DNA of 64,000 nt, taken from positions 21,059,744 to 21,123,743 of the forward strand of contig OX637393.1 in the NCBI GenBank assembly GCA_951799425.1, in the 5' to 3' direction. Positions within the stretch are counted from its first letter, which is position 1. Every line of letters starts with the position of its first letter. The notes beneath the pieces were generated by a model. That model made no database searches and had not been told where the DNA came from. It saw nothing but the letters and a program-made list of their open reading frames with translations. This document shows positions 390-61,306 of the stretch, in pieces. The DNA is from Ilex aquifolium (Eukaryota; Streptophyta; Magnoliopsida; Aquifoliales; Aquifoliaceae). The position numbers and the translations under genes are program-made.

Positions 390-2300
390 TGATGAGAGCA
401 AAATATTGCATATTTGATGGCCTCATTATATGCATTTTAACTCAACTTTTGCATTTAAGTACTTAGTGTTAGCCAAAGTTGTGAATAATATTGATATTTT
501 GATGTTGCATGTTTTGATAGCTTAAATGATGGATTTTAGGACTTTGCAACTATGTTGGATGTGAGGTGAAGTGGTGAACTCATGAAATGAGGATTGAGAG
601 GCTTGGAAGGTAAAGAAATCAAGAAAAATGCATTTTGGATGAAGACCTTCCGGAAGGTTTATGAAGACCTTCCGGAAGGTTTAGCCCACTGGAATTTCGT
701 AATTTTGACACTGTACCACTGTTTTTCTAACTTTTGACCATGATCTACTTCGAATTTGAAAAAGTGAAAAACATGAAAGTTGTAGATATGGATGTCCTTT
801 TTATTGTGTCAAAATTTCAGCTCAATCCAACGGTTGGATCAAAATTTATTATTTTTCTACCAAAACTGGTCCAGAGCTGTCACCAGATTCCAGTAGGTTA
901 AACCTTCCGGAAGGTTGTCATCGTTCTTCCGGAAGGTCTTGCCCAGAATGCGAAAAACAGCCTGCAACTCAACTTTGCGTCTTGGGGGTCCCACCTAATC
1001 TTCTCCCACTTGCTCCCCAACATTATCTTACACAAGCACATGCTTCCCTTACACATTTGGAGGACTTTGGAGGCTTTGCATTGAAGAAGGCATGGGAGGG
1101 AAGTGGGCTACCATGGGGGTGTTGTTCTAGCTTGTCCAAGGCAATCAACTCAGCCCCTCTTTGGTGTAAGACCTGCACACACCTAGGGGGACCCTCCATG
1201 GACGAAATTCAAGGCTTTCACTCTCCATTATACATTCAACATTCAACACACAAGAAGAGGGGTTGGCTACCTAAGCTTAGGATTAGATATAGAAAGCTCC
1301 AAGGGGGAAGATGATGAATAGTGCTCAAAGTGACGTTTTTGCATTTTTCTTCCACTCTTTCACTTGTAGTTTAATGTAAGAACCTTGTAAACTTCATTTA
1401 TTGTCTTTAATGTCATTCCTTTCAAGTTTATTGCAAGTTTACTTTCATGTTCTTCATTTCACCATTGTTATTTAAGTTTTCTTCATTTCAAGCTTTTATA
1501 TTGGGTATTGCATATTTTTCCTTCATAGTTTTAGATTTCTTGTTGTAAGTTAAGTTCCATGCTCCATTTCCCTTCCATGTTCATTTCCTTTATGCTTGTC
1601 TTGCATTGTTAATATGAGTAGCTAGGATTTAAGTTGGTTAATCCAAGGGAAAATTCCTCTTGGGAATACCATTTTCAACTCTTCTTCATTCCTCCCTTTA
1701 GAGTCAAATGGTTCGGTTTGACGGGGTTGAGAGTGGATGAGTTGGTGAGCCTTTGATATTTCGTAGGCCTAGTCACGGTTTATGCTTAAATACTCACCAA
1801 TCTCGTCCCTAGCTTCCCCCGAATCAATCGTTCATTCATGCTCAATCGGAGGAAGGCTTTGAGTTGATTTGATATTCCCATTGGAATGAACCCTTTGGAT
1901 TAGCCAACACTTGCTTTATTTGCATTTTCATTTACAAACCAAACACAAAACTCAAACAAAAGATTTTACATTTTCTTTTCATTTTTGCAAAATCACTTTC
2001 ACAAAACTCCCTTTCCTTCCCTGAGGAGACGACCTTGGAATATTTTCCAAGTAAAACACACGACCACAAAAGACTCCTTTCAATTGGGGAGCACTTTTGT
2101 TCACACGCATTCCATTCCACATTTCATTCCATACATTTTGTTCATTCCACATTTCCATTCACATTTGTTGTTGCTCCTATATCTCTTGCATTATCCGGAG
2201 GGAGAGTGACACTCCCCCATCACTATAAGCCACATACACACATTGATGGTGAGGGTGATGTTTAGGGGTTAGGTAATACAACACGGTTTTCATTCAATCA
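390..2300 (+). repeat. B1 5' LTR
   Basis: Begins TGATGAG and ends CAATCA, giving TGAT/ATCA inverted ends, four bases before the primer site. About 1.7 kb is roughly 99% identical to 5743-7440 (I counted about 17 single-base differences by eye). The last roughly 200 bp does not match the other LTR but resembles the B2 LTR. Confidence 0.88.
645..938 (+). repeat. family B palindrome array in 5' LTR
   Basis: Perfect 14-bp palindromes ACCTTCCGGAAGGT lie at 645-658, 667-680 and 902-915, with an imperfect copy at about 925-937. The phrase GCCCACTGGAATT follows the second copy. Repeated at the same offsets in the 3' LTR (about 5998-6290). Confidence 0.9.
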
Positions 2301-2303
2301 TTT

Positions 2304-2321
2304 TGGCGCCGTTGCCGGGGA
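2304..2321 (+). promoter_or_regulatory. primer binding site (tRNA-Asp)
   Basis: TGGCGCCGTTGCCGGGGA is complementary to the 3' end of plant tRNA-Asp(GUC), the usual primer of Athila elements. It lies three bases after the LTR end. Confidence 0.93.
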
Positions 2322-2431
2322 AGGTTAAGCGTTGAGTTCAAGAGGTGATTTTGGGACGGCATAAGGTAAGTCTTGTGATTTTCATCACGGGCCAAGGTAT
2401 GTCGTCTAACTTGTAAATATTTTATTTTAGT

Positions 2432-3418
2432 TTGTGTTTTGTAATGTTTTCTAATTATTATGGAAATGTATATAATGCCCAAAATTTGCAAAATGTGTGT
2501 AAGATTTGTGATGAGTATGGGCATATTACTAGTGAGTGCCCAAGAATGGCCTCTTATTTTGAAAACGTTTGCAAGATTTGTGGTGAATATGGACACATCA
2601 CTAGTGAGTGCCCTATAAATGCCCCTTATTTTGGAAACGTTTGCGAAATTTGTGGTGAAAATGGACACCTCACTAGTGAATGCCCAATAAATTATCCGGT
2701 TCAACACTTTGAATGCGAAGGTTCAAATTCAAATTTGGCCTCCGAAATTTTTTACCATAACCATTATGTTACACCGAGTTATTCGAGTTATGGTTGGGAG
2801 AATGAACCTCATGATTGGTCATCCGATCTCACACCACCAAATGAATCTCCCCATTATCCAACATATGAGGACTCAACCGAACAAGCATTGGAAAATACTT
2901 TTTATGAGTTTATGCAATCCCAAATGGAATGCAATGCCCAAATGGAATGCATTGCCCAACAACTTAATGCATTGACTAATGCTACAATTGTTATGCATGA
3001 AGAACAACACCTTGAGTATAGTCAATGTATTGAGGATGACCCCCCCAATGAAATGCATATGGATGTTGAATCTCCCACCACTATAGATTGTGAAACATTT
3101 GATGAAGTTATTATCTTGCATGAGGCTAATGAGCCCAAGGACATTTTGCCATCTATGAGTGGTGTTGAGATTCACATTTCTCAACTTGGGGAGGGCATTG
3201 CAATGGAGTTAAGTGTTGAGACTCTTAAAGAAAAATTGAATACTCCACCTTTTGTATTGCATAAACTTGCCTATATCTTGGTTTGGTTGAGATTTTTGAC
3301 TTCTTTTCCTTTGTATTGTTGGATAGATTGGTTAGAAAGGGCATTGATGCAACAAAAAAAATTTAAAATCAAGAAAATCCATGGGCGCAAGGTCATATCC
3401 GAATTGAAGCCGGATTGA
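2432..3418 (+). CDS. triple CCHC zinc-knuckle protein of B1
   Basis: An open frame of 328 codons, the only sizeable ORF of B1. Three near-identical CCHC knuckles sit at the N-terminus: C23-C26-H31-C36, C47-C50-H55-C60 and C71-C74-H79-C84, each with a C-x2-C-x4-H-x4-C pattern and a GHITSEC-like core. Such knuckles bind nucleic acid in Gag nucleocapsids. No capsid domain is recognisable upstream, so this is not a normal Gag. The middle is acidic and rich in Met, Gln and Asn; a hydrophobic stretch lies at about residues 285-310 and the tail is basic. The ATG at 2432 is the first in frame, but the true start is uncertain. Possible roles are RNA packaging in trans or a chance-preserved relic. Confidence 0.72.
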   Translation: MCFVMFSNYYGNVYNAQNLQNVCKICDEYGHITSECPRMASYFENVCKICGEYGHITSECPINAPYFGNVCEICGENGHLTSECPINYPVQHFECEGSNSNLASEIFYHNHYVTPSYSSYGWENEPHDWSSDLTPPNESPHYPTYEDSTEQALENTFYEFMQSQMECNAQMECIAQQLNALTNATIVMHEEQHLEYSQCIEDDPPNEMHMDVESPTTIDCETFDEVIILHEANEPKDILPSMSGVEIHISQLGEGIAMELSVETLKEKLNTPPFVLHKLAYILVWLRFLTSFPLYCWIDWLERALMQQKKFKIKKIHGRKVISELKPD

Positions 3419-3618: not shown

Positions 3619-3791
3619 ACCTTCCGGAAGGTTTTGCCTACTGGAATTTTTTGCCTCAGGCGATAAGCAAAACCTTCCGGAAGGTTTTGTCTACTAGAAT
3701 AAACCTTCCAGAAGGTTTTACCTGTTGACCTCTTTATTCAACTGTTCCTGCTCAAACCTTCCGGAAGGTTTCTATCGACCTTCCGGAAGGT
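3619..3791 (+). repeat. family B palindrome array, internal
   Basis: Perfect ACCTTCCGGAAGGT at 3619-3632, 3672-3685, 3756-3769 and 3778-3791, and a one-base variant at 3703-3716. The block around it (3500-3900) is homologous to the region upstream of the B2 post-pol ORF (25545-25260, minus strand), although B1 has lost that ORF. Confidence 0.88.
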
Positions 3792-3926: not shown

Positions 3927-3960
<34 letters not shown>

Positions 3961-5722: not shown

Positions 5723-5742
5723 AAATCTTAAGTTGGGGGGTG
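5723..5742 (+). promoter_or_regulatory. B1 polypurine tract
   Basis: AAGTTGGGGGGTG lies immediately before the TGATGAG start of the 3' LTR. The equivalent lies at 23456-23475 in B2 (minus). Confidence 0.85.
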
Positions 5743-7615
5743 TGATGAGAGCAAAATATTGCATACTTGATGGCCTCATTATATGCATTTTAACTCAACT
5801 TTTTCATTTAAGTACTTAGTGTTAGCCAAAGTTGTGAATAATGTTGATATTTTGATGTTGCATGTTTTGATAGCTTAAATGATGGATTTTAGGACTTTGC
5901 AACTATGTTGGATGTGAGGTGAAGTGGTGAACTCATGAAATGAGGATTGAGAGGCTTGGAAGGTAAAGAAATCAAGAAAAATGCATTTTGGATGAAGACC
6001 TTCCGGAAGGTTTATGAAGACCTTCCGGAAGGTTTAGCCCACTGGAATTTCGTAATTTTGACACTGTACCACTGTTTTTCTAACTTTTGACCAAGATCTA
6101 CTTCGAATTTGAAAAAGTGCAAAACATGAAAGTTGTAGATATGGATGTCCTTTTTATTGTGTCAAAATTTCAGCTCAATCCAACGGTTGGATCAAAATTT
6201 ATTATTTTTCTACCAAAACTGGTCCAGAGCTGTCACCAGATTCCAGTAGGTTAAACCTTCCGGAAGGTTGTCATCGTTCTTCCGGAAGGTATTGCCCAGA
6301 ATGCGAAAAACAGCCTGCAACTCAACTTTGCGGCTTGGGGGTCCCACCTAATCTTCTCCCACTTGCTCCCCAACATTATCTTACACAAGCACATGCTTCC
6401 CTTACACATTTGGAGGACTTTGGAGGCTTTGCATTGAAGAAGGCATGGGAGGGAAGTGGGCTACCATGGGGGTGTTGTCCTAGCTTGTCCAAGACAATCA
6501 ACTCAGCCCCTCTTTGGTGTAAGACCTGCACACACCTAGGGGGACCCTCCATGGACGAAATTCAAGGCTTTCACTCTCCATTATACATTCAACATTCAAC
6601 ACACAAGAAGAGGGGTTGGCTACCTAAGCTTAGGATTAGATATAGAAAGCTCCAAGGGGGAAGATGATGAATAGTGCTCAAAGTGACGTTTTTGCATTTT
6701 TCTTCCACTCTTTCACTTGTAGTTTAATGTAAGAACCTTGTAAACTTCATTTATTGTCTTTAATGTTATTCCTTTCAAGTTTATTGCAAGTTTACTTTCA
6801 TGTTCTTCATTTCACCATTGTTATTTAAGTTTTCTTCATTTCAAGCTTTTATATTGGGTATTGCATATTTTTCCTTCATAGTTTTAGATTTCTTGTTGTA
6901 AGTTAAGTTCCATGCTCCATTTCCCTTCCATGTCCATTTCCTTTATGCTTGTCTTGCATTGTTAATATGAGTAGCTAGGATTTAAGTTGGTTAATCCAAG
7001 GGAAAATTCCTCTTGGGAATACCATTTTCAACTCTTCTTCATTCCTCCCTTTAGAGTCAAATGGTTCGGTTTGACGGGGTTGAGAGTGGATGAGTTGGTG
7101 AGCCTTTGATATTCCGTAGGCCTAGTCACGGTTTATGCTTAGATACTCACCAATCTCGTCCCTAGCTTCCCCCGAATCAATCGTTCATTCATGCTCAATC
7201 GGAGGAAGGCTTTGAGTTGATTTGGTATTCCCATTGGAATGAACCCTTTGGATTAGCCAACACTTGCTTTATTTGCATTTTCATTTACAAACCAAACACA
7301 AAACTCAAACAAAAGATTTTACATTTTCTTTTCACTTTTGCAAAATCACTTTCACAAAACTCCCTTTCCTTCCATGAGGAGACGACCTTGGAATATTTTC
7401 CAAGTAAAACACACGACCACAAAAGACTCCTTTCGATTGGGGAGCATTTTTGTGCATACATATCCCATATTTACATCTTCCCATTTCCCTTTCCTCATTG
7501 CCCTTTCTTTTGACACTATCCCTAGGGGAAGAAACTCTTCTCCCCCGTCCATACATTGCATACATTGAGGGATAGTAATTAGGGGTTAGGAAAGACAACG
7601 TTTTTGTGACAATCA
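5743..7615 (+). repeat. B1 3' LTR
   Basis: Starts TGATGAG after the polypurine tract and ends CAATCA. Matches the 5' LTR until about 7440, then changes to an unrelated-looking terminal segment that still shares AGGGGTTAGG and the CAATCA end. An apparent 110-residue frame at 6335-6667, repeated at 982-1314, is LTR sequence and not a gene. Confidence 0.87.
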
Positions 7616-8493
7616 CTTCCTTAACCAAAAGATGAACTAACTCCCTTCTATGCATGTAAATGAAAGCATAAACATAAAACTACTCTTATAACAAGCAAGG
7701 AGATGTTGGACTAAAGCCAAACTAATCTCTAAAATAAAGACTTCATACAAGGAAAACATAAGCTTAAATCTACAATGTGAGTGGGAGTCTAAGCCTCCAT
7801 CAACCCTTCTACTTGGCTCCTTTAGCTCTCCAACAATGGGAGTATTTATAGGCAAGATGAGGAGACAAGAGGAGGTGAAGGAATAGTGTATGCCGCCCAT
7901 GTCCAAGTGAAAAACCAACTACTCTGCTGCCAGTCTGTGGAGAACGTTCGAACGTGAGTTGGCGTTCGAACGTTGTTTCTGTTTTGCTTTATAGTCGTTC
8001 GAACGTTGACTGACGTTCGAACGTTTCTTCTGTTTTTGCACTAAGGGCGTTCGAACGCCAGATGTGTTCTGACCCTCTCACTCGAGTGATCTGTTGGTCT
8101 TCTGTGAAGTTCAGTTCCACACTCTATGCAGTAGTCTGGTCTTCAATCAACTCAAGTGCACGTTCGAACGTGAGTTGGCGTTCGAACGTGACACTCAAGT
8201 GCCTAAGAGCTTCACAGTCTTCTTTCCTAACTGCAACACGACTTCTCTTAGTAGTTGAGTCTGCTACAGTTCATTGTGGCCGTTCGAACGTGAGTTGGCG
8301 TTCGAACGTTCTGGTTGTACTCCAAGCTTTTCCAATTTTGTGCTCTAATGTGCTGGTGTTGCATTCAAGTGTGGTACTTGTTGTTCTTGAGTCTTTGTTC
8401 AGTTTAGGGAATGAAATGACATCACTTAAACTCCATCAAAATACAATTAGTCTTAAAACGACATAGTAATATGCTAATTTTAAGTGCTAATCA
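7616..8493 (-). repeat. element A 3' LTR (proximal part)
   Basis: Nearly identical to 13984-14857. Its start in minus orientation is TGATTAG at 8493. Contains the family A palindrome array (7944-8311) and a TATA-like CCTATAAATACTCCC at 7838-7852, both read on the minus strand. Confidence 0.87.
7944..8311 (-). repeat. family A palindrome array in 3' LTR
   Basis: ACGTTCGAACGT-type palindromes (core CGTTCGAACG) occur in close pairs separated by TGAGTTGG-like spacers, for example 7944-7972, 8160-8189 and 8280-8309, with further copies near 7998-8022 and a partner-less copy near 8048. The array lies upstream of the TATA box at 7838-7852. Confidence 0.9.
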
Positions 8494-10322: not shown

Positions 10323-11556
10323 TCACTCTCCTCCATGCCCACCATCTCCACCAGGTCCACCCCTCAGAAGCCTCAGAATCTCATCCTGCTTAGCTTCAAT
10401 GCTAAGCATGATTTCTCGTAAAGAACGTCGGGAGCTGGTGCTAGGCCCTGCCTCCTATGGCTGATCTCTCTCTCCTCCATCTCATCAAGCCCATCTTGCA
10501 CCTCATCCACTCCGTGGGCAGGGGGCTTTTCTTGTCTTGCCGCTGGGCCGCCACTATGACTTTGGCTTCTTCGGAATGAAGCCTTGTTCAGTGGCCCCAT
10601 TGGCTTTTGAATTTCCATCTCCGGCTTCACCCTAACCCCATGGTCCTTGCATATCTCAGTCACTAGGTTGCCGAAGGGAAGTGAATTCCGCTTCACGTCA
10701 CACCCTTTCTTCATCTAGTCAACACTAGGGAGGGGAGGTCAATACTTTGCCCTTTTCCAATAGCATACAAAAGTCGGGCCATGTCGGGCATAATTTCATT
10801 TTTCCTTCCAATTGGGGCAAAGTTTGACACCGCAATCAAGTTTAACATTTTGTATTTGTCAGTTAGCTCCCCTTGTCTGAAAAATTTCTTCCCAGTCCAA
10901 GAAAAATTAGGCATTCCCGTTATTTCCCTTCCCACAACATTCATTGCTACGTTCTTTCTTGGGGGATAGGCGGGACTTGGGACTCGAGGCACTTCTTGCC
11001 TAATCTCTCTTATGTAATCCTCGTTCACCTCGATGTGGATCCCCCTCACATAGCTCCTCAATGCTCCATTAACTATTTCGGCGTTGGAGTAAAACTCCCG
11101 CACCAAGTCAATTATGGCCTCTCCGCCGTTTTGCAAATACAACTTGCAACCCCTTCTCTCCATCTCTGCCATTATCCCCAATTCAACAAAATCAGTCAAA
11201 ACTACACCTCTCTCACACACCACAACATGTTTTTGGTAAAAATTGTCGTACCTGTCAGCTTTCAAAGCTGTGGGGAACCGGGTCTTGTCGTATCTTAGCG
11301 TGAGTGGTGGCCTTCCTTCTCGTACTTCCACAACCTCCTCGACGAAATTGGGCTCCAGGGTGTTTGGGTTGCGCCTGGCAGGAAGCTTGACTCTTGGCAT
11401 GGTGGTTTTGGTTTTTGAGTTTTGAGGGCTTTGAAATCTTGAATTTCTTTGTGAAAATGGAGGTTTTTGATATGGGAATGGTATTGGGAGGGTTGATTTT
11501 AGGTAAAAATGGAGAATGGGAGGTGTTTTGGGGTCTGGGTAGTGAAGAGTCACCAA
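10323..11556 (-). pseudogene. post-pol ORF of element A ('putative plant transposon protein' type)
   Basis: Read downward from 11556. The intended start may be the later ATG near 11400 (MPRVKLPARR). The first frame runs to TGA at 10711-10713 and includes YDNFYQKH, the family-like core LVREFYSNA and GMPNFSWTG. The next frame starts at an overlapping ATGA and carries LPFGNLVTEIC, which continues the same domain, so about one base was gained or lost there. A second frame change near 10430-10470 leads to a C-terminus with LSIEAKQDEILRLL and a Gly-rich tail ending at 10323. The B2 ORF at 23782-25086 is a homologue (LPFGNLVTQMC, REFYKKL). It sits where Athila elements carry their env-like ORF. Function unknown; assignment is by eye. 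Confidence 0.75.
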
Positions 11557-11612
11557 GGTTTTTTCGGTTTCTCAAGGGTTTTGGAGGGTTTTGAAATGAA
11601 GAAGATGAACCA

Positions 11613-11625
11613 GGCTTTTATAGCC
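11613..11625 (-). promoter_or_regulatory. TATA box of internal promoter (element A)
   Basis: GGCTATAAAAGCC on the minus strand, about 57 bp before the longest ORF start and directly downstream of the palindrome array. This suggests a dedicated promoter for the post-pol ORF. Confidence 0.6.
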
Positions 11626-11633
11626 TGAGTCGT

Positions 11634-11901
11634 GACGTTCGAACGTTGATAACGTTCGAACGTGTGTAGAAGGATTTTAAGCAGATCGTTCGAACGTAGT
11701 TTGGCGTTCGAACGTAAGGAGCTCTCAGTACTTTTAAGTTTCATCAGAGGTCAAAGTACTGTAGGTTCTCTTCGTTCGAACGTTCTATTGGCGTTCGAAC
11801 GGACTGAGCTCCCAGTACTTTGAAGTTCCATCCGAAGCTTCATCAGAGGCTGAGTACTATAAGCAGGTGACGTTCGAACGTCACCTGGCGTTCGAGCGTT
11901 G
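11634..11901 (-). repeat. family A palindrome array, internal
   Basis: About eight CGTTCGAACG-type sites between 11636 and 11900 (for example GACGTTCGAACGTT at 11635, GACGTTCGAACGTC near 11870), mostly paired, with GAGCTC(T/C)CAGTACTT phrases between pairs. Same palindrome as in the family A LTRs, but the array lies upstream of the ORF. Confidence 0.9.
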
Positions 11902-12917: not shown

Positions 12918-14857
12918 TGACTTGATCCGAAATGTGTACACCCAAGTGCAGGCGGTCAAGCTGTAGTAATAATCCGGTTTGAGTCCGGAGTCGAATCCAC
13001 AGGGAAATTTTGTTGGTATTTTTGAGATAAGCAGTGGTGGAGACCTATTATTTGTAACCTTTGAGATTTGTTGAGAGATGTGAGATTTCCTAGACAGAAT
13101 ATAAGATTCTTTCCAAGAGAATTTTCTTAACAAAACAGGAGATAAATACTAATGAAAATGGGTCACTCTTTAGTTCAAGGATCTGGACATGTAGTTAATC
13201 ATCCGGTTTATTATACTTGTGCTTGATAACTCAATTAACTCCCGTGTCAACAACAAGTTAATCGGAAGATAAAGATGGACTGTGAGAATTAAGAACATGA
13301 TTCCGATGTCTTTCTAGAAGTTTACAAGAATTGTCTGTGCCGAGACTTAACCCGTCTACAAACAAGCAAGTGTTTCTACAAGACATCCAATCATGACATT
13401 AATATTTTATTCTTTAAATGAAGCACAATAAGGGGGAGGATTGAAGGGTAGTCCTGAGGATCCAGCCGGGGTACTTGCCTTGAACCGATAAGTCTTTCTA
13501 TGCAAGAGTCATCCGTGTCATAGAAAGACCCCACGGTTATACAAAGTACCTTAGCTTTGCTAGATGCAATCAATCATCCAATAAGCAAGAAGAGATAAAC
13601 GTTAATCATAAGAACAGTGCACAAATATAATTCCCGGATAACTTATACATGCCCTTCTCCTCTTACTAAAGAGTGAATGAGAAACTACTCACTCTTCATG
13701 GCTTTGGTAAAGCTAGAAAAGTGGGTGATGCTCATCCCTCCAAGTAGAAGACTTAAAAGATAATGTAACAATGAACAAGGAGCCAATCTTTAACAAAGAT
13801 TGAGTGAATCACGTTCCACCCTTCACGATTTTGGTAAATCTCTAGAAAAGTGGAAGAGTTTCACTCTTCTAAGAAAGAAAAAAGCTCAAGCAATGGAAGT
13901 GAAGTACATAAACAATAAAAGTAGAAGAAAGCTAGTCACATTTGGAGGGTGGCTTCCTCAACCAAGAAATGGAGGGTTGCTCCCTCAACCAAAAGATGAA
14001 CTAACTCTCTTCTATGTATGTAAATGAAAACATAAACATAAAACTACTCTTATAACAAGCAAGAAGATGTTGGACTAAAGCCAAACTAATCTCTAAAATA
14101 AAGACTTCATACAAAGAAAACATCAGCTTAAATCTACAATGTGAGTGGGAGTCTAAGCCTCCATCAACCCTTCTACTTGGCTCCTTTAGCTCTCCAACAA
14201 TGGGAGTATTTATAGGCAAGAGGAGGAAACAAGAGGAGGTGAAGGAATAGTGTATGCCGCCCAAGTCCAAGTGAAAAACTAACTACTCTGCTGCCAGTCT
14301 GTGGAGAACGTTCGAACGTGAGTTGGCGTTCGAACGTTGTTTTTGTTTTTGCTTTATGGTCGTTCGAACGTTGACTGACGTTTGAAAGTTTCTTCTGTTT
14401 TTGCACTAAGGGCGTTCGAACCCTAGATGTGTTCTGACCCTCTCACTCGAGTGATCTGTTGGTCTTATGTGAAGTTCAGTTCCAACTCTATGCAGTAGTC
14501 TGGTCTTCAATCAACTCAAGTGCACGTTCGAACGTGAGTTGGCATTCGAACGTGACACTCAAGTGTCTAAGAGCTTCACAGTCTTTTTTCCTAACTGCAA
14601 CGCGCCTTCTCTTAGCAGTTGAGTCTGCTACAGTTCATTGTGGCCGTTCGAACGTGAGTTGGCGTTCGAACGTTCTGGCTGTGCTCCAAGCTTTTCCAAT
14701 TTTGTGCTCTAATGTGCTGGTGTTGCATTCAAGTGTGGTACTTGTTGTTCTTGAGTCTTTGTTCAGTTTAGGGCCTGAAATGACATCACTTAAACTCCAT
14801 CAAAGTACAATTAGTCTTAAAATGACATAGTAATATGCTAATTTTAAGTTCTAATCA
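12918..14857 (-). repeat. element A 5' LTR
   Basis: Starts TGATTAG at 14857 and ends ATCAAGTCA at 12918, six bases before the primer site (about 1.94 kb). Palindrome array at 14306-14671 and TATA-like CCTATAAATACTCCC at 14202-14215, all in minus orientation. Matches 7616-8493, 171-331 and the solo LTR 21070-22829. Confidence 0.9.
14306..14671 (-). repeat. family A palindrome array in 5' LTR
   Basis: Same array as 7944-8311, with a few decayed copies (for example GACGTTTGAAAGTTT near 14380 and GGCATTCGAACG near 14540). It begins about 90 bp upstream of the TATA box on the minus strand. Confidence 0.88.
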
Positions 14858-21064: not shown

Positions 21065-22834
21065 CCTAGTGATTAGTAGTTAAAATCAGCATATTACTAT
21101 GCCTTTTTTAAGACTAATTATACAGTGATGGAGTTTAAATGATGACATTTCAGGACATAAACTGTACAAGGGACCAAAGGCAATGAATATCAAACTTTCG
21201 TGCAACACCAACATATTCTGGAGCAAAATTGGAAAAGTTTGGACCAAGGCAAGAACGTTCGAACGCCAATCCACGTTCGAACGTTCTCTTGAATTATGGA
21301 AGATCAGACTACTGAAGTGCTAATGTATGGCGTGTTGCAGCAAAGACACACATAAGTACTTGAGTACAACGTTCAAACGCCAATCCACGTTCGAACGTTG
21401 TCCTAATTTATTGAAGACCTGACTGATGAGTGCAAGGGCAGTGGTTCATGGCGTATAGAAGTAACTCTCCCAAAAGAATAGAGGCCACTTGAGTAGGAGG
21501 TTCAAACTACATCTGGCGTTCGAACGCCATCAAGCAAAAATAGGAAGAACGTTCGAACGTTGTCCCCAGACTGGCTGTAGAGTGGTTGGCTTTCACTTGG
21601 AATTTGGCGGCCTTGCACTATTCTTTCACACTCCCTTGTCTCCTCCTCTTTGCCTATAAATACTCCCATTGTGGGAGCTTCAAGGGACTTTTTTTTTGAG
21701 ACTAGATCAACATTTCTTTGCTTTTTATAGATTTAATCTTAGACTTAGGTTTATATTTACTTGCATAAAGGAATATAGATCATCTTTTGGTTGCGGTAGA
21801 AACCCTCCAAAAGTGACTTGTTTTCTTCTACTTTCAGTATTAGTTTCACTCACTTCCATTGCTTGAGCTTCTTTCTTTCCTGAGAGGAGTGAAACTCTTC
21901 CACTTTTCTAGAGCTTTACCAAAGCCGTGAAGGGTGGAACGTGATTCACTCATTCTTCGTCGAAGATCGGCTCCTTGTGTAGTGTGTTTTATCTTGTAAC
22001 TCCTCTACTTTGAGGGATGAGCATCACTCACTTTTCTAGCTTTACCAAAGCCATGAAGAGTGAGAAGTTTCTCATTCACTCTTTAGTAAGAGGTAATTGA
22101 CATGTATAAATCATCCGAAAGTTATATCTGTGCATTTTCGATTACGCTTAATGCTTTATATTTTCCTTGCTTATTGAATGATGATTGCATCTAGCAAAGC
22201 TAAGGTACTTTGCATAACCGTGAGTACTTTCTATAACATAGATAACTCTTGCATAGAAAGACTCATTGGTTCAAGGCAAGCACCTCGGCTAGATCTTCAT
22301 GAATACCCTTCAATCTTCATCATTATTGTGCTTCATTTAAAGAATGGAATATTAATATCATGGTTGGATGCCTTGTAGAAACACTTACTTGTTTGTAGAC
22401 GGGTTGAGTCTCGGCATAGACAATTCTTGTAAACTTCTAGAAAGACATCGGAACCATGCTCTTAATCCACCTTTATATTCCAATTAACTTGTTGTTGACA
22501 TAGGGGTTAATTGAGTTACCAAGTACATGTATAATAAACTGGATGATTAACTACATGTCCAGATCCTCGAACTAAAGAGTGACTTTTTACATTTAAGCTT
22601 ATCGTATATTTTGTCTAGAAAATCCCTTTGGAAAGAATCCTATATTCTGTCCAGAAAATCCCATACATCACACAACTTCAAAACTAAAAGGTAACAGTCA
22701 CTTGGTCTTTGTCACCACTTACTTCAAAACACCGACAACTATTCCCTGTGGATTCGACTTCGGACTTAACCGGATTATTACTACAACTTGACCGCCTACA
22801 CTTGGGTGTACACATATCGGATCAAGTCACCTAG
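21065..22834 (+). mobile_element. solo LTR of family A with 5-bp TSD
   Basis: A single LTR (21070-22829, TGATTAG to AAGTCA) flanked by CCTAG on both sides (21065-21069 and 22830-22834). No primer site or internal sequence follows, so recombination between two LTRs removed the rest. Palindromes at 21253-21562 and TATA-like CCTATAAATACTCCC at 21653-21667. Confidence 0.93.
21253..21562 (+). repeat. family A palindrome array in solo LTR
   Basis: Copies of AACGTTCGAACG at about 21253, 21273, 21388 and 21548, and decayed ones near 21366 and 21518. The spacer CCAATCCACG is the reverse of the paired-site spacer in other copies. Ends about 90 bp before the TATA box. Confidence 0.87.
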
Positions 22835-23455
22835 CCTGCAACTTCCCTGGCTCCCTTCTTCTGTCTCTTCCTCATTAATGTTTGGGCCTCCAAAGTACAA
22901 CCTTATGTGTGGGGAGGCATGTAGATGTGTAAGAGATGTCAGGGGACAAGTGGGAGAATCCTAGGTGGGACTCCCAAATGGCAGAGCTTGAGTTGCAGGC
23001 TGTCTGGCATTTCTGGGCAAAACCTTCTGGAAGGTCGATGCAAACCTTCTGGAAGGTTTATGCAAGAATAGTGAAAATAGTAGTCTAGTGACCCAAACCT
23101 TCTGGAAGGTCGATGTAAACCTTCTGGAAGGTTTATTCTAGTAGACAAAATGTTCCGGAAGGTTTAGGCAGTGCATAGGCATACCAAGTGCAAACCTTCC
23201 AGAAGGTTTTCATCCAATTTTCTTTTTTCTTGGTTTCTTCACCTTCCAATCTTTCCTTTAAGCTATCCCCTCATCTTCATTGACTTTAAACACTACGATG
23301 GGAGCTTAACTCAAGTCATTTACAATTCTTCACCTACATTCACACAAAACTTCATTAAAAGGTAGATTAAATGCATTTCTTTCCAAATTCTCAACAAAAG
23401 CAAGTATAAAAAGTGTATAACAACATACAATATATGCAATATTTTGTGCTAATCA

Positions 23456-23781: not shown

Positions 23782-25086
23782 CTAATCATCATCATCGAAA
23801 GCATCCTCATCCTCAGCATCACTCTCGGACTCACTCCCCTCATCCTCATCATCATCATCGTCATCGCCGGACTCTCCCACCTCAACAACCGTAGAAGGTG
23901 CGGGAGCAGAGGTAGATGGTCCAGCTGGAGGCTGCGGAGGTCCACCGGAGATGGGCTCGCCCAGGAAAGTATGTTGGAAGATCCTTGTCACCATCATTGA
24001 CAGCCCATACATAGTAGACTACAAGTCATCCATACGCTGTGACATGGTGCGGGCTGGGGCAGAAGTAGAAGGCCCGACAGAGGATGGCCCTGGTCCTGAT
24101 TCTCTGGCTCTCTCCCCTCCTGTCCTGGCTGCCCTCTTACTGTTGCTCGACTTCCCAATGGCACCAGTCTCAAGGGGTAGCAGCGTGTCATGCGCGTAGG
24201 ACTTAACCTTGCTGTGAGAGCACATCTGTGTGACGAGATTGCCGAAGGGGAGATTCACCTTCGACTTTGCAGCCTTAGAGAACTCCCTCATCTCCTCCCA
24301 TATCAACAGAGTCACATCAATCGCCTTCCCTGTCATAAACGCATGGAGGAGGGCGAGCTTCTCAATATTTGGGCTCTTCACGAAGCCCCAGGGCTTCAAT
24401 TTATAGTGGAGTACTTTGTTCATTACTCCATAAGAGTGCTTAAGGCCATCGACAAGAGTCGTCCCTTTAAAAGTGGTTGGGTCCTCGTAGGTGAGCTGCA
24501 CATAATCGGAGAGTGTTCTACCCCCTTCAACATTGTGTGGGTAGACCGGGGTAGTAGGGGGAGGCCTCTCGTACTTCATTACCGTGGCAATCAACTCAGG
24601 GGTCACCTCAAAAGTCTTCCCCCGCACATTAGTTCTTAACCCACTACCATCCTCGCCAAACACCGATAATTTCTTATAGAACTCTCTACACAACCCCAAA
24701 TTGTAGCCACTCACCTCCTCAAACCAAATACCCAAACCATGTCCCTTGATCACCCTCACCACTTCGTCATTTGGCCCAAGCGAGATCTTGTCCACATACC
24801 TCTCACGCTTGACATTTTTTTCATTGATCATTTGTCTACGTGCGTCGTGTCTCGCTTTCGTCCTTCTCTCCTCCCGATCTCCACTACTCGGGCCCTCCAC
24901 GCTCCTCTTGCAGGATGTAGTGCCTGCGGGTGGTGGGGACTCTAGCCCAGTTCTCTTGGTGCGGGCTATGGTGATCAACAGTGCCCCCAAGCCAAGAATT
25001 TTCAAAATCCACATCAAAAGCCACTCAATGGGCTCAAAAGTATCTAGAGAAGTCTTTCCTAAACGAGCCATAGCACGGGATGTCAA
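23782..25086 (-). pseudogene. post-pol ORF of B2 ('putative plant transposon protein' type)
   Basis: A frame of about 434 codons from 25086 to 23782, interrupted once by TAG at 24019-24021; the same frame continues after it. Features in order: hydrophobic N-terminal stretch (about residues 22-42), basic Arg/Lys segment, YNLGLCREFYKKL, MKYERPPPTTPVYP, KLALLHAFMTGKAID, VNLPFGNLVTQMC, a Ser/Pro-rich linker, and a highly acidic Asp/Glu tail at the C-terminus. A homologue of the element A ORF at 10323-11556. It lies after integrase, the env-like position of Athila elements. I see no clear signal peptide or envelope hallmark, so a surface-protein role is doubtful. Confidence 0.78.
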
Positions 25087-25353
25087 GGTTTTGGAGAAAC
25101 CCTAAAAAAGATTTGAAATTGGGGGAAAAAAGTGAGACCTAGGGTTTTTAGAGATTGTCCACAAATTTCGGCAAAATCAACTCAATAATTAACCCTAATC
25201 AAGAGAAAAGTAAGAATTTAGGGCTTGGGTGAAGTGTTTTTGAAGGTTGGAAGAGAGTAGATGGAGATGAGAGAGTTTGGGAGCTTGAGATTTGGAGGAA
25301 ATGTGAAGGGTTTTTCAAAAAATTCTAACTTAAAACCCTCGTTTTTAGCATTT

Positions 25354-25453
25354 TTGGCAAGACTTTCCGGAAGGTTTTGCTCACTGTTGGGGCACAACTT
25401 TCCAATAATGAAAACCTTCCAGAAGGTCGATGACAACCTTCCGAAAGGTTTTG
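25354..25453 (-). repeat. family B palindrome array, internal (B2)
   Basis: Three decayed copies of ACCTTCCGGAAGGT (TTTCCGGAAGGT near 25365, ACCTTCCAGAAGGT near 25412, ACCTTCCGAAAGGT near 25437), about 270-370 bp upstream of the post-pol ORF. Homologous to 3619-3791 in B1. Confidence 0.83.
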
Positions 25454-27387: not shown

Positions 27388-27933
27388 TTAGAGAACACCT
27401 CGCACTTGAGGTTTGACAAAAACACCAATATCAGCAGCTAAGAAAGAAAACACTATATGCAAAAGATAAAGTAAGTAAGCATAAACAGTTAAAGTAAGTA
27501 AAAATGACTGTACACTAAAGACTATAAAAACAGGATAGACCGGATCCATCAATTCTTCCTCCACCCCTTGACTTTCAAAACTCTCAAAAAATGGTTTAAG
27601 TCTTTGGCCATTGACCTTGAATGTCTTGTCATCCTTGGGGTTGGTGATTTCCACAGCTCCATTGGGGTAGGCCACCTTGACAAGATAGGGGCTATCCCAA
27701 CAAGATCGGAGTTTCCCTTGAAAGATAGAGAGACGAGAGTTGTACAAGAGCACTTTTTGTCCAGGTTCAAATGATTTCCTTGAAATGGATTTGTCATGAA
27801 AGATTTTAGCTCTCTCTTTTGAAATTTTTGAACTCTCATACGCATCTCTACGAATCTCCTCTAATTCATTCATTTCTATCTTCATATTCTCTTCGACCAT
27901 TCTCAAATTGAAGTTCAAGATCTTGACCATCAA
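27388..27933 (-). pseudogene. B2 integrase C-terminus (Athila type)
   Basis: A 181-codon frame whose first two thirds is the end of an Athila integrase: NELEEIRRDAYESSKI, SFEPGQKVLLYNSRL, FQGKLRSCWDSPYLVK and FKVNGQRLKPFFES. The catalytic core is absent; homology stops at about 27935, close to a repeated ACAACTTCCCCATTT phrase (also at 28022). The C-terminal third is hydrophobic and of unknown meaning. Confidence 0.85.
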
Positions 27934-28079
27934 GACAACAACTTCCCCATTTATTGTCTTTTTATATTTTGTGTCTCTCGTGTTTGTATGACGATGTTCA
28001 TTCCATACACAATTTTAGTGCACAACTTCCCCATTTGACATTCAGGGGAGCAATTTCAAGATAGTCACAACCCAGCCAA

Positions 28080-42954: not shown

Positions 42955-44930
42955 TGTGACGCTATAAGATCTGGGAGTCCTTTTTCAACCTGTTAATCAC
43001 CCATCAACCTGCGGAAGTATACCCATGAGTACTGTATAACCCGATACCACGTTGTTACACCCTATTCACCAGGGTCATAACCAAAACGAAATCCATGTAA
43101 AGTCTCCTTTGTACCGGAGCACTACCCAACACGTCACGTGTTCACATATTAACCATATGACCATTCCAAGGTCAAAACCCCATGGTTAGGACTTATTTTC
43201 CTCCATTAACATTCTAAGAGGATTGTTCAAAAAGTGAAAGCCCTTCCGTGTTATATCTTAAAATTTCAAATTCTCGGAAGAGGTATCGGTACCTCTGATG
43301 CGTGGTATCGGTACCTGGTTCTTCTGTTTGCTAGGTACAAGCACATATGTACACTGATACCGGTAACTATATGTCTTGGTACCGATACCTGAGCCCACTG
43401 TCCATCGAGGTACCGGTACCTGATACCTAGGTACCGATACCTGAGCCCATTGGAATCCAGGTACTGGTGCCTATAGGTTTAAGTACTAGTACCTGGGTTA
43501 TCCGACATCGTGGGTACCAGTACTTAATCACTTAGGTACCGGTACCTAAGCCCAAATTTCTCCCAACTCTTATGATTTTCAACTTTTAACCATCCAAACT
43601 CATACCATAATTATCCATTCATTCATTTACATGAAAACCATTGTCAAAAAGAGTTCATTACATGTCCCATTTATACAAATTTACAAGTTCAAAATAAATT
43701 ACATATTTAATTACAAAAATGCAATTTAAGAGCCACATTCTGGCTCCTTCATCAACACGGGCCCAAGTGATAGTCGTCCACCAGCGCTTGTCCAACACCT
43801 GAAATATATCCCCATAAAGGGTAAGCCACGCTCAATAGGGTATCTCCTAAGGAGGCTACTTCCTAACCCAAATGCATATGAAATGTACACATGCGATTCA
43901 TCAATCAATCATCCATTCAAGAATATATAATTCATAAATGAATACCACAATGACATGCATGTCATGAGATGAAACTCACACATGCAATGTAACCCGAGCC
44001 CTCCACTAGCTCCCATCACACATGTCATGTCATGCGTATGTATCCAGGTATTCCAAGCCACCATCATCAATGTTACACATCCAATGACCATTTTATAAAA
44101 TCTCAAATCTTTCTTGGGGTGGATATTTATGAACTTCCACTGGCGGGTACCCAACCGACATGACATCTATGGACTTCCACCAACGGCTCCGCGTACGTCG
44201 ACGCACTTTATGAACTCAATGCCAACGGGAGTACGTATCCTAAGTCACCGGGTCTTGCAACTGAGGAAGAATCTAGCCCTTCTTACTAACCCTGATCCTT
44301 GTTTTCAATACAACCTGTGCGACTCAGTCGAACTTATGTCTAACTTTCCCGAGCCCACGTCTCAACCCACCGAGGACAGTATTTGATAAAAAACATGCAC
44401 ACACACTCACACTCATGTCAAATACTCACGAATGCGATGCTAACTGTGTATATGCAAATATAATGAACAATTGCATTCTATATCACTATGCAATCAAGTT
44501 TTCAATTGCAATTACAATAGCATGTTCATCATATCATGAGCATATTATGAACATATTCCATCTCCACAAACATTTTCAATTTCTCAATTTATACTAATAA
44601 GATAGAGGTAAATTCAAAATTTTTCAATTAAAATCAACCCTCCTAATTTAGGAAAGCATAACGGTTAGGATTTGATTGAAATTTAAGTACACGGTTCAGA
44701 TTTCATCTAAATTCATCTCATTAAATCTAATGGCTCACAATCCATCCCACCCAAATACATTCTCTTGCTCACTTTAACCACAGACACACTACCCATAACT
44801 CAAACCAAACCCAACTAACCCTCCCCATCCCAGGCGTCCTCTCTCTCTCACACACACACAGAACTCCTCTGCATGGCTAAACCATCATCAAAGATCTCCT
44901 CTCTCTCCTCTTATGACACACGATTTTGGG
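42955..44930. repeat. family H Tekay-like LTR (probably solo)
   Basis: Begins TGTGACGC and shares its first 200 bp with 37035-37250. Contains the family H palindrome array and Tekay-LTR-like phrases such as CATGACATCTATGGACTTCC (44159-44178). No adjacent primer site or pol gene. The right end is approximate, and I found no TSD. Apparent frames (43909-44386) are LTR sequence. Confidence 0.6.
43284..43548. repeat. family H palindrome array
   Basis: About ten GGTACCGGTACC-like sites. Perfect AGGTACCGGTACCT at 43408-43421, and a perfect 20-bp palindrome CTTAGGTACCGGTACCTAAG at 43531-43550. Others are one-base variants (GGTATCGGTACC, GGTACCGATACC). Spacers include GAGCCCATTGGAATCCA, like the family B spacer. 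Confidence 0.88.
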
Positions 44931-51439: not shown

Positions 51440-52735
51440 TATTATGTTTTTGTGTTTTTGTGGGAAAAACGTTTTTGAAACTTTGAGGATTTGTTTTGAA
51501 AACGTGTTTTAAAATGAGTCATGGTATGGAAGTTTTTTAAATACTCCCCATGGTACTTCGGAAGTTGAAAAAGAGCATTTGTTTAGAAGGATAACCAGAC
51601 TCTCTAGCACTAAGGGGAAGTTGACAAATAGATTGGACATGAAAAGAGCAAACCAATGCTTAGCGCTCGCTACAGCCCTCTACTGCTCTCCTAGCGCTAT
51701 CAGAAAGTTAGAAAATGGACTGTAAATGAAAAGAGAAAACCAGTGCTCAGTGCTCGAGCGTTGCCCTGTTCATGGGTAGCAGAATTCTATTCTAGTGGGA
51801 AGTGCTCGAGCGCTACGTCATGGTCAGGATTTTTTGCTTGTCAATTACTTTTTTCTATTTCTATGAATAGAGGATATGTTCTTTGACTTCTTAAGAATTA
51901 AGAGAGATACAGGAGAGGTCCTAGGGTTTAAGAAAGGCTAAAAAGACTTGAGAAAACTTACTCTTGCTCCAATCAAACCCTAATCCCTACATGATCTACC
52001 TATAGTTCTTGAGAGAATTCATGCTAGAACATTCAATGATCTTGTAGAATGCCAAAACCCACTAGACAAAGGATCCAAGGAGGCTACAAAAGATCAAAGA
52101 AGGATTCTAAAGGAGAAGGGAGGATTCCAAAAGGGTGAATTGTAGAGTTCGATTCATTACACCTATTGAAGCTAGTAATCAAGAACTAGCAATGGATTTC
52201 CGAATTGAAGATTCAACGGAAAGAGTGTTTAACCATGATATTGGTTGTTGTGTAAGTCTTTAAACTTGCAATTGAACTTTGAGGCTAGTGGATTAGATTG
52301 GATGAACTTTAGTCCATGGCTTTTTCCAAGATGGTATCCCCGTAAAAATTACTTGCGTTGTGTGTTGTGTTGTGCTTGTTTTTATATACCTGGAATTTTT
52401 ACTTTCCTCCAAGTGTTTGATAAATTACTTTAGTGAATCCAACTTGTGGTGTTGGCCGTTTTAATACCTTAAATCAATTTGGTTAAATTGGTGGAAGGAT
52501 TGGAGTGATAAGGTTGGTTGAATGTGTTTGATTGACATTGAATTAATTGGGAATTTTGCACGCATTCACTAATTAGTTTTTGGGTTGAAGTCATTGATGG
52601 GTTAATTAATTGATTGTAACTGAATGATACAAGTTTTATGTAGGCAAAATTTCCACATAAAAGTGCATAACACCTATTCAACCCCCCCCCCCCCCCCCCC
52701 CCTTCTTTCTCCTCTATGTCAACTTCGTTTGTTCC
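51440..52735 (+). repeat. SIRE/Maximus-like copia LTR (solo or fragment)
   Basis: Contains the run of features usual in plant SIRE LTRs: a TTGAGGCTAGTGGATTAG phrase, a CCCCGTAAAAATTACTTG phrase, and near the 3' end CACCTATTCAACCCCCCC. No TGGTATCAGAGC primer site follows. Both ends are approximate. The 3' end is about 75 bp from the donor site of the PECT1-like exon at 52813-52884. Confidence 0.55.
51690..51818 (+). repeat. GCTCGAGCGC palindrome sites
   Basis: GTGCTCGAGCGTTG near 51758 and GTGCTCGAGCGCTAC near 51803, plus half sites TAGCGCTCGCTA near 51681. A TATA-like CTATGAATAG follows near 51862. Confidence 0.65.
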
Positions 52736-58074: not shown

Positions 58075-58079
58075 AAACT

Positions 58080-58720: not shown

Positions 58721-59130
58721 AGCTAACAATGCCACTGAATGGGAGATGATGAGGTCTGAAATGTCCGAGGGGATGTATCAAGGTCAAGATAATAGAGACC
58801 ACCAGCTGCATATCCCGTATCAATTTTTCTCTTTGTCTGGAGATCCTGAAACACGCAGTAGGAAGGGAAAAAGATTACCGAATAATTAAGAGAGTGAGTA
58901 ATCTTGCTAATGAAAAAGAAACTAAAGGGAAACTGGGGAACAAATAATACTGATGATAAAGACGTATCAATACTCAATTGAGTAATCCCCACACCTGAAA
59001 CTTTAGAGAAAGTGTCATTAGCAATGAGTAACACTGTGAGGAATTAACAGACTGATAAGTAGAAAAGACACCAGACGAACCGGTCATGTGGTCAGAGGGG
59101 CCAGAATCTATGATCTAGGGACTGCGAGTT
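58721..59130 (-). pseudogene. copia K protease region
   Basis: On the minus strand DSGPSDHMTG stands where active copia proteases have D-S/T-G-A. It continues as SLLIANDTFSKVSGVG and GYAAGGLYYLD, then leads into the integrase zinc motif with stops at about 59037 and 58721. Ala to Pro at the active-site triplet suggests loss of function. Confidence 0.75.
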
Positions 59131-59486
59131 GAGGATAATAAACAAGTGGAAGCAATACTTGACTGGGCAAACGTGGTAGTGGAGGAGGATGAAGCAACCT
59201 CCTGTTGGGACAGAAGCTGAGCATACTCCTCGCGGACAAGTGTAACAATCCCAGAGTCTGGTGGAGCTGAATGTGATTGGGAGGAAGTATCATCCTGATA
59301 AGAGGTCTGACTAACAACGCCCGAAGGCTTGCCATGTAAATCCCAACAATAATTAGCGGTGTGTCCTCCACGACCACAATGAGTGCACACATGTGAACCA
59401 GATCAACCACCACGACCACAAGTACAGCCTCGAGTACGACTTTCCCGTCCTCCACAACCACCACGATTACCACGACCACCTCGTGA
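59115..59486 (-). pseudogene. copia K Gag C-terminus with zinc knuckle
   Basis: Arg/Gly-rich GGRGNRGGCGGRESRTRG is followed by the CCHC knuckle CTHCGRGGHTANYC and WDLHGKP, usual for copia Gag. A stop near 59402 interrupts it. It continues the Gag at 61811-62533; the solo LTR F separates the two. Confidence 0.8.
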
Positions 59487-61142
59487 ACTGTAACGCCCCA
59501 AATACCACCCTGGACGGCATTACATTCTAAAACATTCACATCATGAGAGCACTAAATATCATCCATAAATAAATTAAACTTCATTCATCATCCATAAAAT
59601 ATTTACATCATTATCCAAAAGAATATGCTCAACCATGGCATTTACATCTCAAAAATTAATTAAAGTACCATAGCGGAATAGCAAAAGAAACTAGACCTTA
59701 CAGTGTCCAAAAGAATAACCTAGTCTAGTACAAAAGAAACTACATCTCCACATATCCACCTCGGGATCTAGGTTCCCCTCGAGTGGAGCCTCCCAATGCC
59801 CTGACTCGTCGATGCCGAGATCCTCCTCTAGCACCAAATCTGAAAAATGTAATTTGTAGGGATGAGCACAAAGCTCTGTAGCAAAATCTTCCCACACTCA
59901 AACAAGGTTTAGAAAAACATATAAAACGGTTGGTCTCATTTTCACAAATAGCATATATACCATTTTGAAGGAAAAGCAGGATATTTTAAATAGATCTCGA
60001 GTTTAAATGTTCGCAAGAATTTAAATGAACCGTAAAGTTCAGTCACAATTATCACCATAACCATTTCCGACAGGTCCTTGTGGAGTCTCATACCTCCACA
60101 AACACTTGTTGGAAACCATTCCGTAACAATAATAATAATCTCATGTTCTTATGTATATTGATTCATCCCCGTACCATGTATGTTGATTGCTTCTCATGAA
60201 TCTACCCAACGATTATACCTAGTCCACCAATCACCATCACATTCACAAGCAGTTTAGGAAAGGGCGTCTACCATCCCAATGGCAGTGACGAGTCCCTTCC
60301 CAGGAAAAGTATACTATCCCTTATTCGAACTCCAGTGAACGATAGTGGTTTCATTACCAAATGACAACCCACTACAAGTGCTAGGAAACCATCTCACCCC
60401 CACTGGGGTAGACTAACATCTAACACTCTACGGCATCTCTCGAAGGCAATCCAAGTCCCTCACAACAACCATACAATTGAGGAAACCAAAATACTCTCAA
60501 TTCATCAACATTTCAAGGAATTACCAAATTCCACAATTTCTAATATAATGTTTCATAATATGATGGAAGAAAATGAGCAAGAGATCATCATAAGTAACAT
60601 TTTGATGTACAATATCAAACACTAAAGTTTTGAAAGCAATACCAAGGGAAAATAGAGGGAAAAGTCAATTTCTCTTTAAAACCAAGGTTTGAAGATGAAA
60701 AGGAGAAATTTAATAGTTACCCAACCATCACAATGTTCAAAACATGGCATTTATTTCAACAGGAACAAGAATCATGTATTTAATAGCAAGTACATATGAT
60801 TTTAAACCAAAAGAATACATATAATGTAGCCCTAGCCTCAATGTAAGAACATAGAAAGAAATCCCCTACCTCAACCAAGTATCTCTAGCAACCCAAGCTT
60901 TAAAGACTCCCTTTTCCCCTTTCTCTTGCTCCCTTGCTACTTTCTCTTTTGGTTCTAAGAGGTTTGAGTGAGGGTGAAGTGAAATTTTAGAAGAGGGAAT
61001 GGATGGAGAAGTGAAATCTTGAAAACTAGGGCTTTGATCTTGTAAATCTCTCCCAATTTTTGTGTTTTTCTCTCCCTCTTTTGCTCTCTAAGGGTGCCTA
61101 GGGTTTGGATGGGTGAAATGAGGCTCAAATAGTCGGCCTTAA

Positions 61143-61152
61143 GTATTTATAG
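61143..61152 (-). promoter_or_regulatory. TATA box of LTR F
   Basis: CTATAAATAC on the minus strand, about 50 bp downstream of the family F palindrome array, followed by a CT-rich leader. Confidence 0.65.
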
Positions 61153-61203
61153 TGGAAGAAATGGAGAAAGACCCGAAGTCGGATCGGGCTGGTTTCTATC
61201 GGG

Positions 61204-61306
61204 CGTACCGGTACGCGTACCGGTACGGTTGAGCTTCTGGAGTCCAGCGTACCGGTACGATCTAGCTTCTGGAGTTCAGCGTACCGGTACGCATACCCGG
61301 TACGAT
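61204..61306 (-). repeat. family F palindrome array
   Basis: Perfect CGTACCGGTACG at 61204-61215, 61216-61227, 61248-61259 and 61280-61291, and one copy with a one-base insertion near 61294-61306. Spacers repeat AGCTTCTGGAGTCCAG and AGCTTCTGGAGTTCAG. Confidence 0.93.

Follow-up and report, generated by a model that had tools for sequence, protein, structure and literature searches.

What the env-like and additional genes of plant retrotransposons do is an open question. It is raised anew, together with a second one, by a stretch of 64,000 nucleotides from Ilex aquifolium (assembly GCA_951799425.1, contig OX637393.1, positions 21,059,744 to 21,123,743 of the forward strand), which is called the window here: why do several retrotransposon families, designated A, B (with B'), F, H and SIRE-like, carry clusters of short palindromes, many of them in long terminal repeats (LTRs)? 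The palindromic arrays are real, widespread and placed like regulatory sites. Judged by their layout, they are probably operator or enhancer sites through which a dimeric factor would act on two promoters of the same element, that of the LTR and that of an additional gene with the PF20167 domain.

Palindromic arrays in the window

The initial annotation had assigned to each family a perfect palindrome of its own. All five motifs are indeed found in the window by exact matching: ACGTTCGAACGT of family A in 11 copies, ACCTTCCGGAAGGT of B in 10, CGTACCGGTACG of F in 4, AGGTACCGGTACCT of H in 2, and the SIRE-like site GTGCTCGAGCGC in 1, accompanied by 1 copy with one mismatch. The A core, CGTTCGAACG, is present at 6 to 9 sites per A array, a few of them with 1-2 mismatches. 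The motifs had also been said to differ completely between families, which is not the case because GTACCGGTAC is common to F and H. Likewise, the proposed 3 to 10 copies of each motif hold for A, B and F, but not for H (2 exact) and the SIRE-like site (1 exact) when perfect palindromes are counted, and a CpG centre is not general, as the counterexample GCGCCTAGGCGC from the clade C elements described below indicates.

The expectation that the arrays exceed shuffled sequence was borne out. Over the whole window, 51 CG-centred palindromes of at least 10 bp were counted, against a mean of 6.8 and a maximum of 15 in 100 dinucleotide shuffles, on which ground chance was rejected as an explanation; palindromes with other centres show a mild rise (90 against 65 in shuffles). 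Two contigs were also sampled at regular intervals, and the resulting 15 stretches of 4 kb have 23 CG-centred palindromes against 6.6 (shuffle maximum 11). When perfect CG-centred palindromes were tested region by region, with 300 shuffles per region, the A regions (5 to 10 palindromes, shuffle maximum 2), the B region (4, maximum 2) and the F region (4, maximum 3) passed, and no excess was found in the H region (2, maximum 3), the SIRE-like region (1, maximum 1) or either of the B' regions (0). The observed-to-expected ratio of CpG is 1.26-1.75 in the A arrays and 1.60 in the F array, compared with 0.58 for the whole window and only 0.36-0.78 in the B, B', H and SIRE-like arrays.

One motif at two places of an element

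Element A, which is of Athila type and lies on the minus strand, comprises the following features, listed from its 5' end and followed by a solo LTR of the same type.

12918..14857, minus strand: 5' LTR of element A; primer-binding site (PBS) TGGCGCCGTTG at 12901-12911 (minus)
14309..14672: A array in the unique 3' (U3) region of the 5' LTR, 6 exact and 3 decayed sites
14207..14215, minus strand: TATA box of the 5' LTR, separated from the array by 93 bp
11636..11898: A array inside the element, with 7 exact sites, 1 one-mismatch site and a distance of 17-19 bp within pairs
11615..11623, minus strand: TATA box between the internal A array and the PF20167 open reading frame (ORF), 12 bp from the array
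10711..11571, minus strand: PF20167 (Transposase_32) ORF, Pfam E 7e-17, first ATG at about 11400
7945..8308: A array of the 3' LTR, in its U3 region, with 9 exact CGTTCGAACG; nearby sites are 18 and 33-34 bp apart
7843..7851, minus strand: TATA box of the 3' LTR, 93 bp from the array
21070..22829, plus strand: A-type solo LTR, target duplication CCTAG (by eye), array at 21256-21559, TATA box at 21654 (plus)

The 3' LTR part of element A reaches up to 8493, and its PF20167 ORF has a weak continuation at 10376-10714 in another frame. The solo LTR repeats the layout seen in element A, with a U3 array and then the TATA box. The internal and LTR arrays of element A agree in motif and in their 17-19-bp pairing despite unlike spacers, between which no homology was found (score 12, null mean 11.4).

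Elements B and B' also have arrays both in the LTR and internally.

390..2300, plus strand: 5' LTR of the Athila-type element B (TGATGAGAGC...), PBS TGGCGCCGTTG at 2304-2314, ends read by eye
645..937: B array of the 5' LTR (U3 region), ACCTTCCGGAAGGT at 645, 667 and 902 and, with 2 mismatches, at 924; distance within pairs 22 bp
3619..3791: B array inside the element, 4 of its 5 sites exact, spacing 53/31/53/22
5998..6290: B array of the 3' LTR, from exact matches and site scan
22830..23455, minus strand: U3 part of the B' 3' LTR, with a decayed B array at 23022-23207 (6 sites with 1-2 mismatches)
24019..25101, minus strand: PF20167 ORF of B', Pfam E 3.3e-19, in env-like position
25362..25449: internal B-type array of B', upstream of the PF20167 ORF, 3 one-mismatch sites, spacing 52/22
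27388..28014: integrase-like tail of B', assigned by eye, no Pfam family over the cut-off

The B LTR is a direct repeat (387-2163 and 5740-7515) with 97.6% identity, and the PF20167 ORF of B' sits between the integrase-like tail and the 3' LTR. The B motif contains TTCnnGAA, and a heat-shock element was considered as a possible reading of it. A and B were assigned to the Athila type by the PBS TGGCGCCGTTG, found in both, and by the PF20167 ORFs of A and B'; a PBS of this type and a 3' extra gene with PF20167 are both traits of this lineage. The PBS type is presumed by us to be that of Athila, and the lineage names of A and B are partly our assumption as well. No reverse transcriptase was found in elements A and B. 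The arrays had been regarded as features of LTRs, which is correct for those of A, B and F that lie there, but those at 11636-11898, 3619-3791 and 25362-25449 are internal.

Of the 12 arrays in the window, 5 are accompanied by a TATA box that is oriented away from the array and lies within about 100 bp on its downstream side; random blocks have 0.027 such boxes each. In the A and F LTRs the palindromic copies lie upstream of the TATA box, which follows 51-94 bp downstream, and the same holds for clade D (see below). The spacing of the sites is regular. In the window and 16 further stretches chosen by the A motif, 128 successive distances of up to 60 bp between A sites (at most 1 mismatch, related copies included) comprise 70 of 18 bp, 10 of 17 bp, 9 of 19 bp and 33 of 34 bp. 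B sites are 22, 31 and 53 bp apart, with 44 and 52 bp also occurring in B'; F sites are separated by 12 and 32 bp, and clade C sites mostly by 61-62 bp (16 of 32 distances). Such fixed spacing combined with free spacer sequence suggests proteins that lie side by side on the DNA.

Occurrence in the genome and in other PF20167 clades

The assembly to which the window belongs (800 Mb, 103 contigs) contains 12,048 matches to the A motif ACGTTCGAACGT and 14,692 to the F motif CGTACCGGTACG, against 44 and 14, respectively, for the reversed-pattern controls. In the fixed-step sample, a palindrome core is repeated at least 3 times in 5 of the 15 stretches. One of these five, L029 (GGGCGCCC), resembles an ordinary tandem repeat; the motifs of the remaining four are A, F, the TACCGGTA type and a new one, CGTCCGGACG.

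Seven PF20167 genes of the A clade are present in the 16 A-motif stretches. An A array lies directly upstream in all seven (at locus L012 in the form of 2 exact and 4 one-mismatch sites) and a TATA box intervenes in six; six of the seven stretches also show a further A array with a TATA box after it, which is taken as the LTR. This test is biased because the stretches had been chosen by motif. A genome search for PF20167 that was not chosen by motif gave 6661 first-look candidates, of which 150 were scored and the 30 best loci taken. These turned out to be one linked group by DNA similarity, clade C, the proteins of which are 22-27% identical to that of A (among twelve alignments). Their upstream sites are GCGCCTAGGCGC and of the type CAGCGC-N4-GCGCTG. 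A block of 800 bp, reaching from 1250 to 450 bp ahead of the domain, was set after the arrays had been seen and consists of related copies; over the 30 loci it holds 263 AGCGC/GCGCT half-sites. Its inverted half-site pairs number 22, where shuffles give 0.1 (at most 1), and its GC-rich perfect palindromes 39, where shuffles give 3.8 (at most 10). The comparison block of the same loci, 800 bp from the domain end and partly coding, has zero half-sites and zero GC-rich perfect palindromes. A perfect GC-rich palindrome of 10 bp occurs at 17 of the 30 loci. All three clade C LTR stretches that were retrieved have a half-site cluster, with 4, 6 and 3 half-sites within 150 bp, matched by 10, 0 and 5 of 500 shuffles, respectively.

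In clade D (377 amino acids, one element examined), 8 GCGTCCGGACG sites, 6 of them exact, are followed by a TATA box and then by the PF20167 gene, and an LTR-like stretch after the gene has 4 exact GCGTCCGGACG sites about 64 bp before a TATA box; at both places the site pairs are 23 bp apart. The same motif or half-site is therefore present in the LTR and upstream of the PF20167 gene, clearly so in A and D, in decayed form in B, and sparsely in the LTR in C. At another PF20167 locus, L070, TGATCGATCA and TTGATCAA are found upstream within tandem repeats of about 220 bp.

Comparison with known systems

It had been stated that no described system matches. This is wrong, because Bousios et al. 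2010 (PMC2829016) report a closely comparable layout in Sireviruses, the palindromic boxes of which are thus published. In the accessible text of that paper, 13 elements of these Ty1/copia retrotransposons carry palindromic repeated-motif (RM) boxes in their LTRs before the TATA box, elements with ENV have more RM copies upstream of ENV (77 of 79 linker copies), the boxes are called Sirevirus-specific, and an internal promoter is suggested. As far as the boxes are described there, the present arrays are alike in that one palindrome occurs in many copies in the upper LTR half upstream of the TATA box (A, F and D), in that extra copies lie upstream of a 3' gene (here the PF20167 ORFs of A, B', C and D, not that of L070), and in that the motif varies from element to element. 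Sirevirus RMs are CpG-rich, and in this trait the present arrays are mixed, with CpG ratios of 1.26-1.75 in A and 1.60 in F but 0.36-0.78 in B, B', H and SIRE-like. A CGG-CCG core is given for 12 of the 13 Sirevirus elements, whereas the motifs of A (CGTTCGAACG), B (ACCTTCCGGAAGGT), C (GCGCCTAGGCGC), D (GCGTCCGGACGC) and F (CGTACCGGTACG) have no CGG before CCG. Furthermore, the carriers of these five motifs are not Ty1/copia but Ty3/gypsy, namely Athila-type elements and a Tekay-like LTR, and the motifs are tied to PF20167 clades. Among the matches listed in the open-licence literature, no report of the same layout in Athila or Tekay was found. A known feature, described only for Sireviruses in the sources available, is thereby extended to Ty3/gypsy elements, in which the motifs are clade-specific, stand at two places, are linked to an extra gene and reach thousands of copies.

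Parts of the layout are also reminiscent of other systems, of which foamy virus Tas and VANC are working precedents for binders that an element itself encodes. Of palindrome arrays in foamy viruses, we know of none. The foamy virus factor Tas (PMC4929722), as presented in the accessible text, is alike in that a single factor acts at two promoters, that of the LTR and one inside the element that precedes an accessory gene; it differs in that it belongs to an animal retrovirus and that its binding and activation were shown, whereas here the site layout is what is known. VANC and the VANDAL elements (PMC5735166) have family-specific short motifs that are clustered in non-coding parts and change between related families, as well as an extra gene. 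VANDALs are, however, DNA transposons, the available text mentions no palindrome, and VANC was shown to bind the motifs and to cause methylation loss, while the present arrays are known from sequence alone. Retand/TRP28 (PMC11963269) has, in the part of the account at hand, an accessory gene between pol and the 3' LTR, proposed to encode a DNA-binding regulator, and family-specific tandem repeats; unlike here, the gene is antisense, contains another domain (PF04195), and the repeats are not linked to U3 motifs.

Possible functions of the arrays

Each array is probably a family-specific operator or enhancer made up of paired dyad sites, which would be read by a dimeric sequence-specific DNA-binding factor. 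An element would then have two promoters. Genomic RNA would be made from that of the LTR, the PF20167 gene would be served by an internal one, and both would be controlled together by one factor. The specificity of this factor would differ between families, so that each family would be switched separately. The initial annotation had proposed such operators, and among the explanations considered they fit best with the dyads, the fixed pair spacing, the TATA boxes that follow the arrays in A, D and F, and the two places per element; the binding itself, and hence the step from operator to factor, is what we infer.

Several observations weigh against operators of this kind. A perfect GC-rich palindrome of 10 bp is absent from 13 of the 30 clade C loci, and the evidence for clade D comes from one element. 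The PF20167 clade of 406 amino acids (one locus) has only two palindromes upstream, and at the single locus examined of the 384-amino-acid clade, L070 (G000:C3:47591700-47593500), the upstream region has no GC-rich palindromes. No strict or canonical TATA box was found near the B, B', H and SIRE-like arrays, of which the B case counts here. Finally, the sites of B' and H are decayed, and the F LTR carries an array though no PF20167 gene is known for F.

As to the factor, each family may independently have acquired, at both of its promoters, dyads that a different transcription factor of the host recognises, a version to which we give a chance slightly short of even. It needs no new protein, would accommodate the F array, and has a precedent in stress-responsive plant LTRs. 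Host transcription factor sites are usually shorter and shared, whereas those described here are long, differ between clades and stand twice, at separate places, in the same element. The Sirevirus boxes, according to the accessible text of Bousios et al. 2010 (PMC2829016), were matched mainly to stress-related sites.

It could also be imagined, more tentatively, that the array of each family is bound, in U3 as well as at the promoter of the PF20167 gene, by the PF20167 protein of that family, in a positive loop or as an anti-silencing factor in the manner of Tas or VANC. In four clades the PF20167 gene is located downstream of the array and the motif changes with the clade, but linked parts of one element co-diverge anyway. 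The protein was under purifying selection, since the ratio of non-synonymous to synonymous substitution rates is 0.14 in A (one usable pair, 2 of 5 frames being stop-free) and has a median of 0.26 in C (range 0.14-0.86, 173 of 231 pairs from the 22 of 30 domains that are stop-free). In sunflower Athila, PF20167 is found in an additional ORF with a predicted nuclear localisation signal, as stated in the accessible text of PMC11728184. The structural evidence speaks against this version insofar as AlphaFold models of the protein were useless (mean predicted local distance difference test scores of 41 and 34) and a PDB sequence search gave no significant solved relative (best E 0.16 or worse), and so does L070 as a PF20167 locus without such an array. 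A homologue search with the B' ORF yielded none at E <=0.001 among 4230 candidates. Neither of two paired motifs had a match in viral contigs, where the protein had no relative either, and 3 bacterial matches to the paired A motif in a collection of genome contigs are taken as chance.

Were the PF20167 protein the binder, the specificities of Athila-type regulators and of their clade-specific sites might evolve in step, so that every family would have a switch to itself and the system would be a plant retroelement counterpart of Tas or VANC; this is a speculation that we hold with some reserve. Matched sets of proteins and sites with shifting specificity would then be open to study. The presence of the same clade-specific putative operator in the LTR and before the PF20167 gene suggests a concrete, testable role for the additional gene, that of a regulator with its operator.

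Transcribed hairpins, the other function proposed initially, appear unlikely. Adjacent palindromes would fold in the RNA and serve packaging, small-RNA production or silencing. All six folded segments are indeed stable (z -4.1 to -7.4), but any pair of identical palindromes folds strongly. The LTR arrays of A, D and F, being upstream of the TATA box, are outside transcripts that start there, yet they are inside the 3' end of genomic RNA, and Sirevirus LTR palindrome motifs are described as small-RNA mapping hotspots in the accessible text of PMC5311732. The fixed spacing without spacer homology in A suits proteins on DNA better. A functionless by-product of slippage or tandem duplication is very improbable: array parts are tandem repeats and the copies stem from few elements, but the internal and LTR arrays of A have motif and spacing in common and not spacers, and four clades have their motif at two places.

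Site decay and relations between families

Among the mismatches in decayed sites, transitions from C to T or from G to A within CG or CHG account for 7 of 10 in the 9 sites of B' and 8 of 17 in H (10 of its 11 sites used); the 32 sites of A have 6 mismatches, half of which (3) are such transitions. The decay in B' and H follows the pattern expected for formerly methylated sites and would be consistent with past methylation.

A homology of the arrays between families was looked for without success; the design may be convergent or exchanged, as the initial annotation proposed, or inherited. By eye they are alike, with a stretch resembling TGAGC..TGGA-TCCAG in H, F and B and with TTCTTCTGTTT in A and H, but the likeness was unsupported in tests. 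The best local scores between family spacers are inside the null, the lowest being B against a SIRE-like stretch (11/200). An anchored spacer comparison gave 28/300 for B-H and 2/300 for B-F, the latter from a different short match. In a masked LTR comparison, B-F scored 34 (null maximum 35) and H-SIRE-like 26 (maximum 26), and a control pair equalled its maximum of 29. One array-adjacent segment of about 120 bp, 732-849 in B and 61343-61461 in F, is 64% alike and inverted relative to both LTRs; this likeness is suggestive of exchange but not above the best of 100 shuffles. A double spacing of 51-53 bp was noticed as common to A, B, H and SIRE-like.

The F, H and SIRE-like arrays and neighbouring elements

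The remaining arrays of the window are the following.

59489..61810, minus strand: F, Tekay-like solo LTR (TGTAACACCCC...), target duplication TGAAC, inside copia gag
61204..61304: F array, 4 exact CGTACCGGTACG and 1 damaged site, TATA box at 61144-61152 (minus), 51 bp away
43281..43547: H array, made up of 2 exact and 9 degenerate GGTACCGGTACC sites
51750..51813: SIRE-like sites, an exact copy and a one-mismatch copy with 52 bp between them

The lineage name of the F LTR, the termini of which are of chromovirus type, is our assumption. H still counts as an array, though a decayed one, because it has 11 sites (2 exact, 8 with 1-3 mismatches and 1 with 4) and all ten distances are 21-22 or 30-31 bp. 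The F solo LTR interrupts the gag of a copia element on the minus strand (56339-62572), and 31-bp repeats containing CTGAACCGG lie at 62631-62809, upstream of this gag. At the window edge (63440-64000), the chromodomain and integrase end of another chromovirus was noticed; what is presumed to be its 3' LTR has a TATA box at about 63378 that is not flanked by a palindrome array.

Some other elements also have repeats of their own. The stretches 47680-48540 and 54850-55190 both begin with AAGGATC(A/G)AAATATCGTTTC, end with an inverted copy of the TTTTGATCCTTGA type and contain TTTCGACC / CGAAACG repeats, and they perhaps represent a terminal inverted repeat (TIR) family with CpG-rich repeats of its own. 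A further TIR-like stretch at 40690-41985 (GGTTCAAAGTCGCGATATC ... GCCGATACTTTGAACC) has CCGAGTT-type repeats near one end. A run of 34 G at 48814-48847 is possibly an assembly or sequencing oddity, and a hAT-like coding piece (Dimer_Tnp_hAT) is located at 36592-37083.

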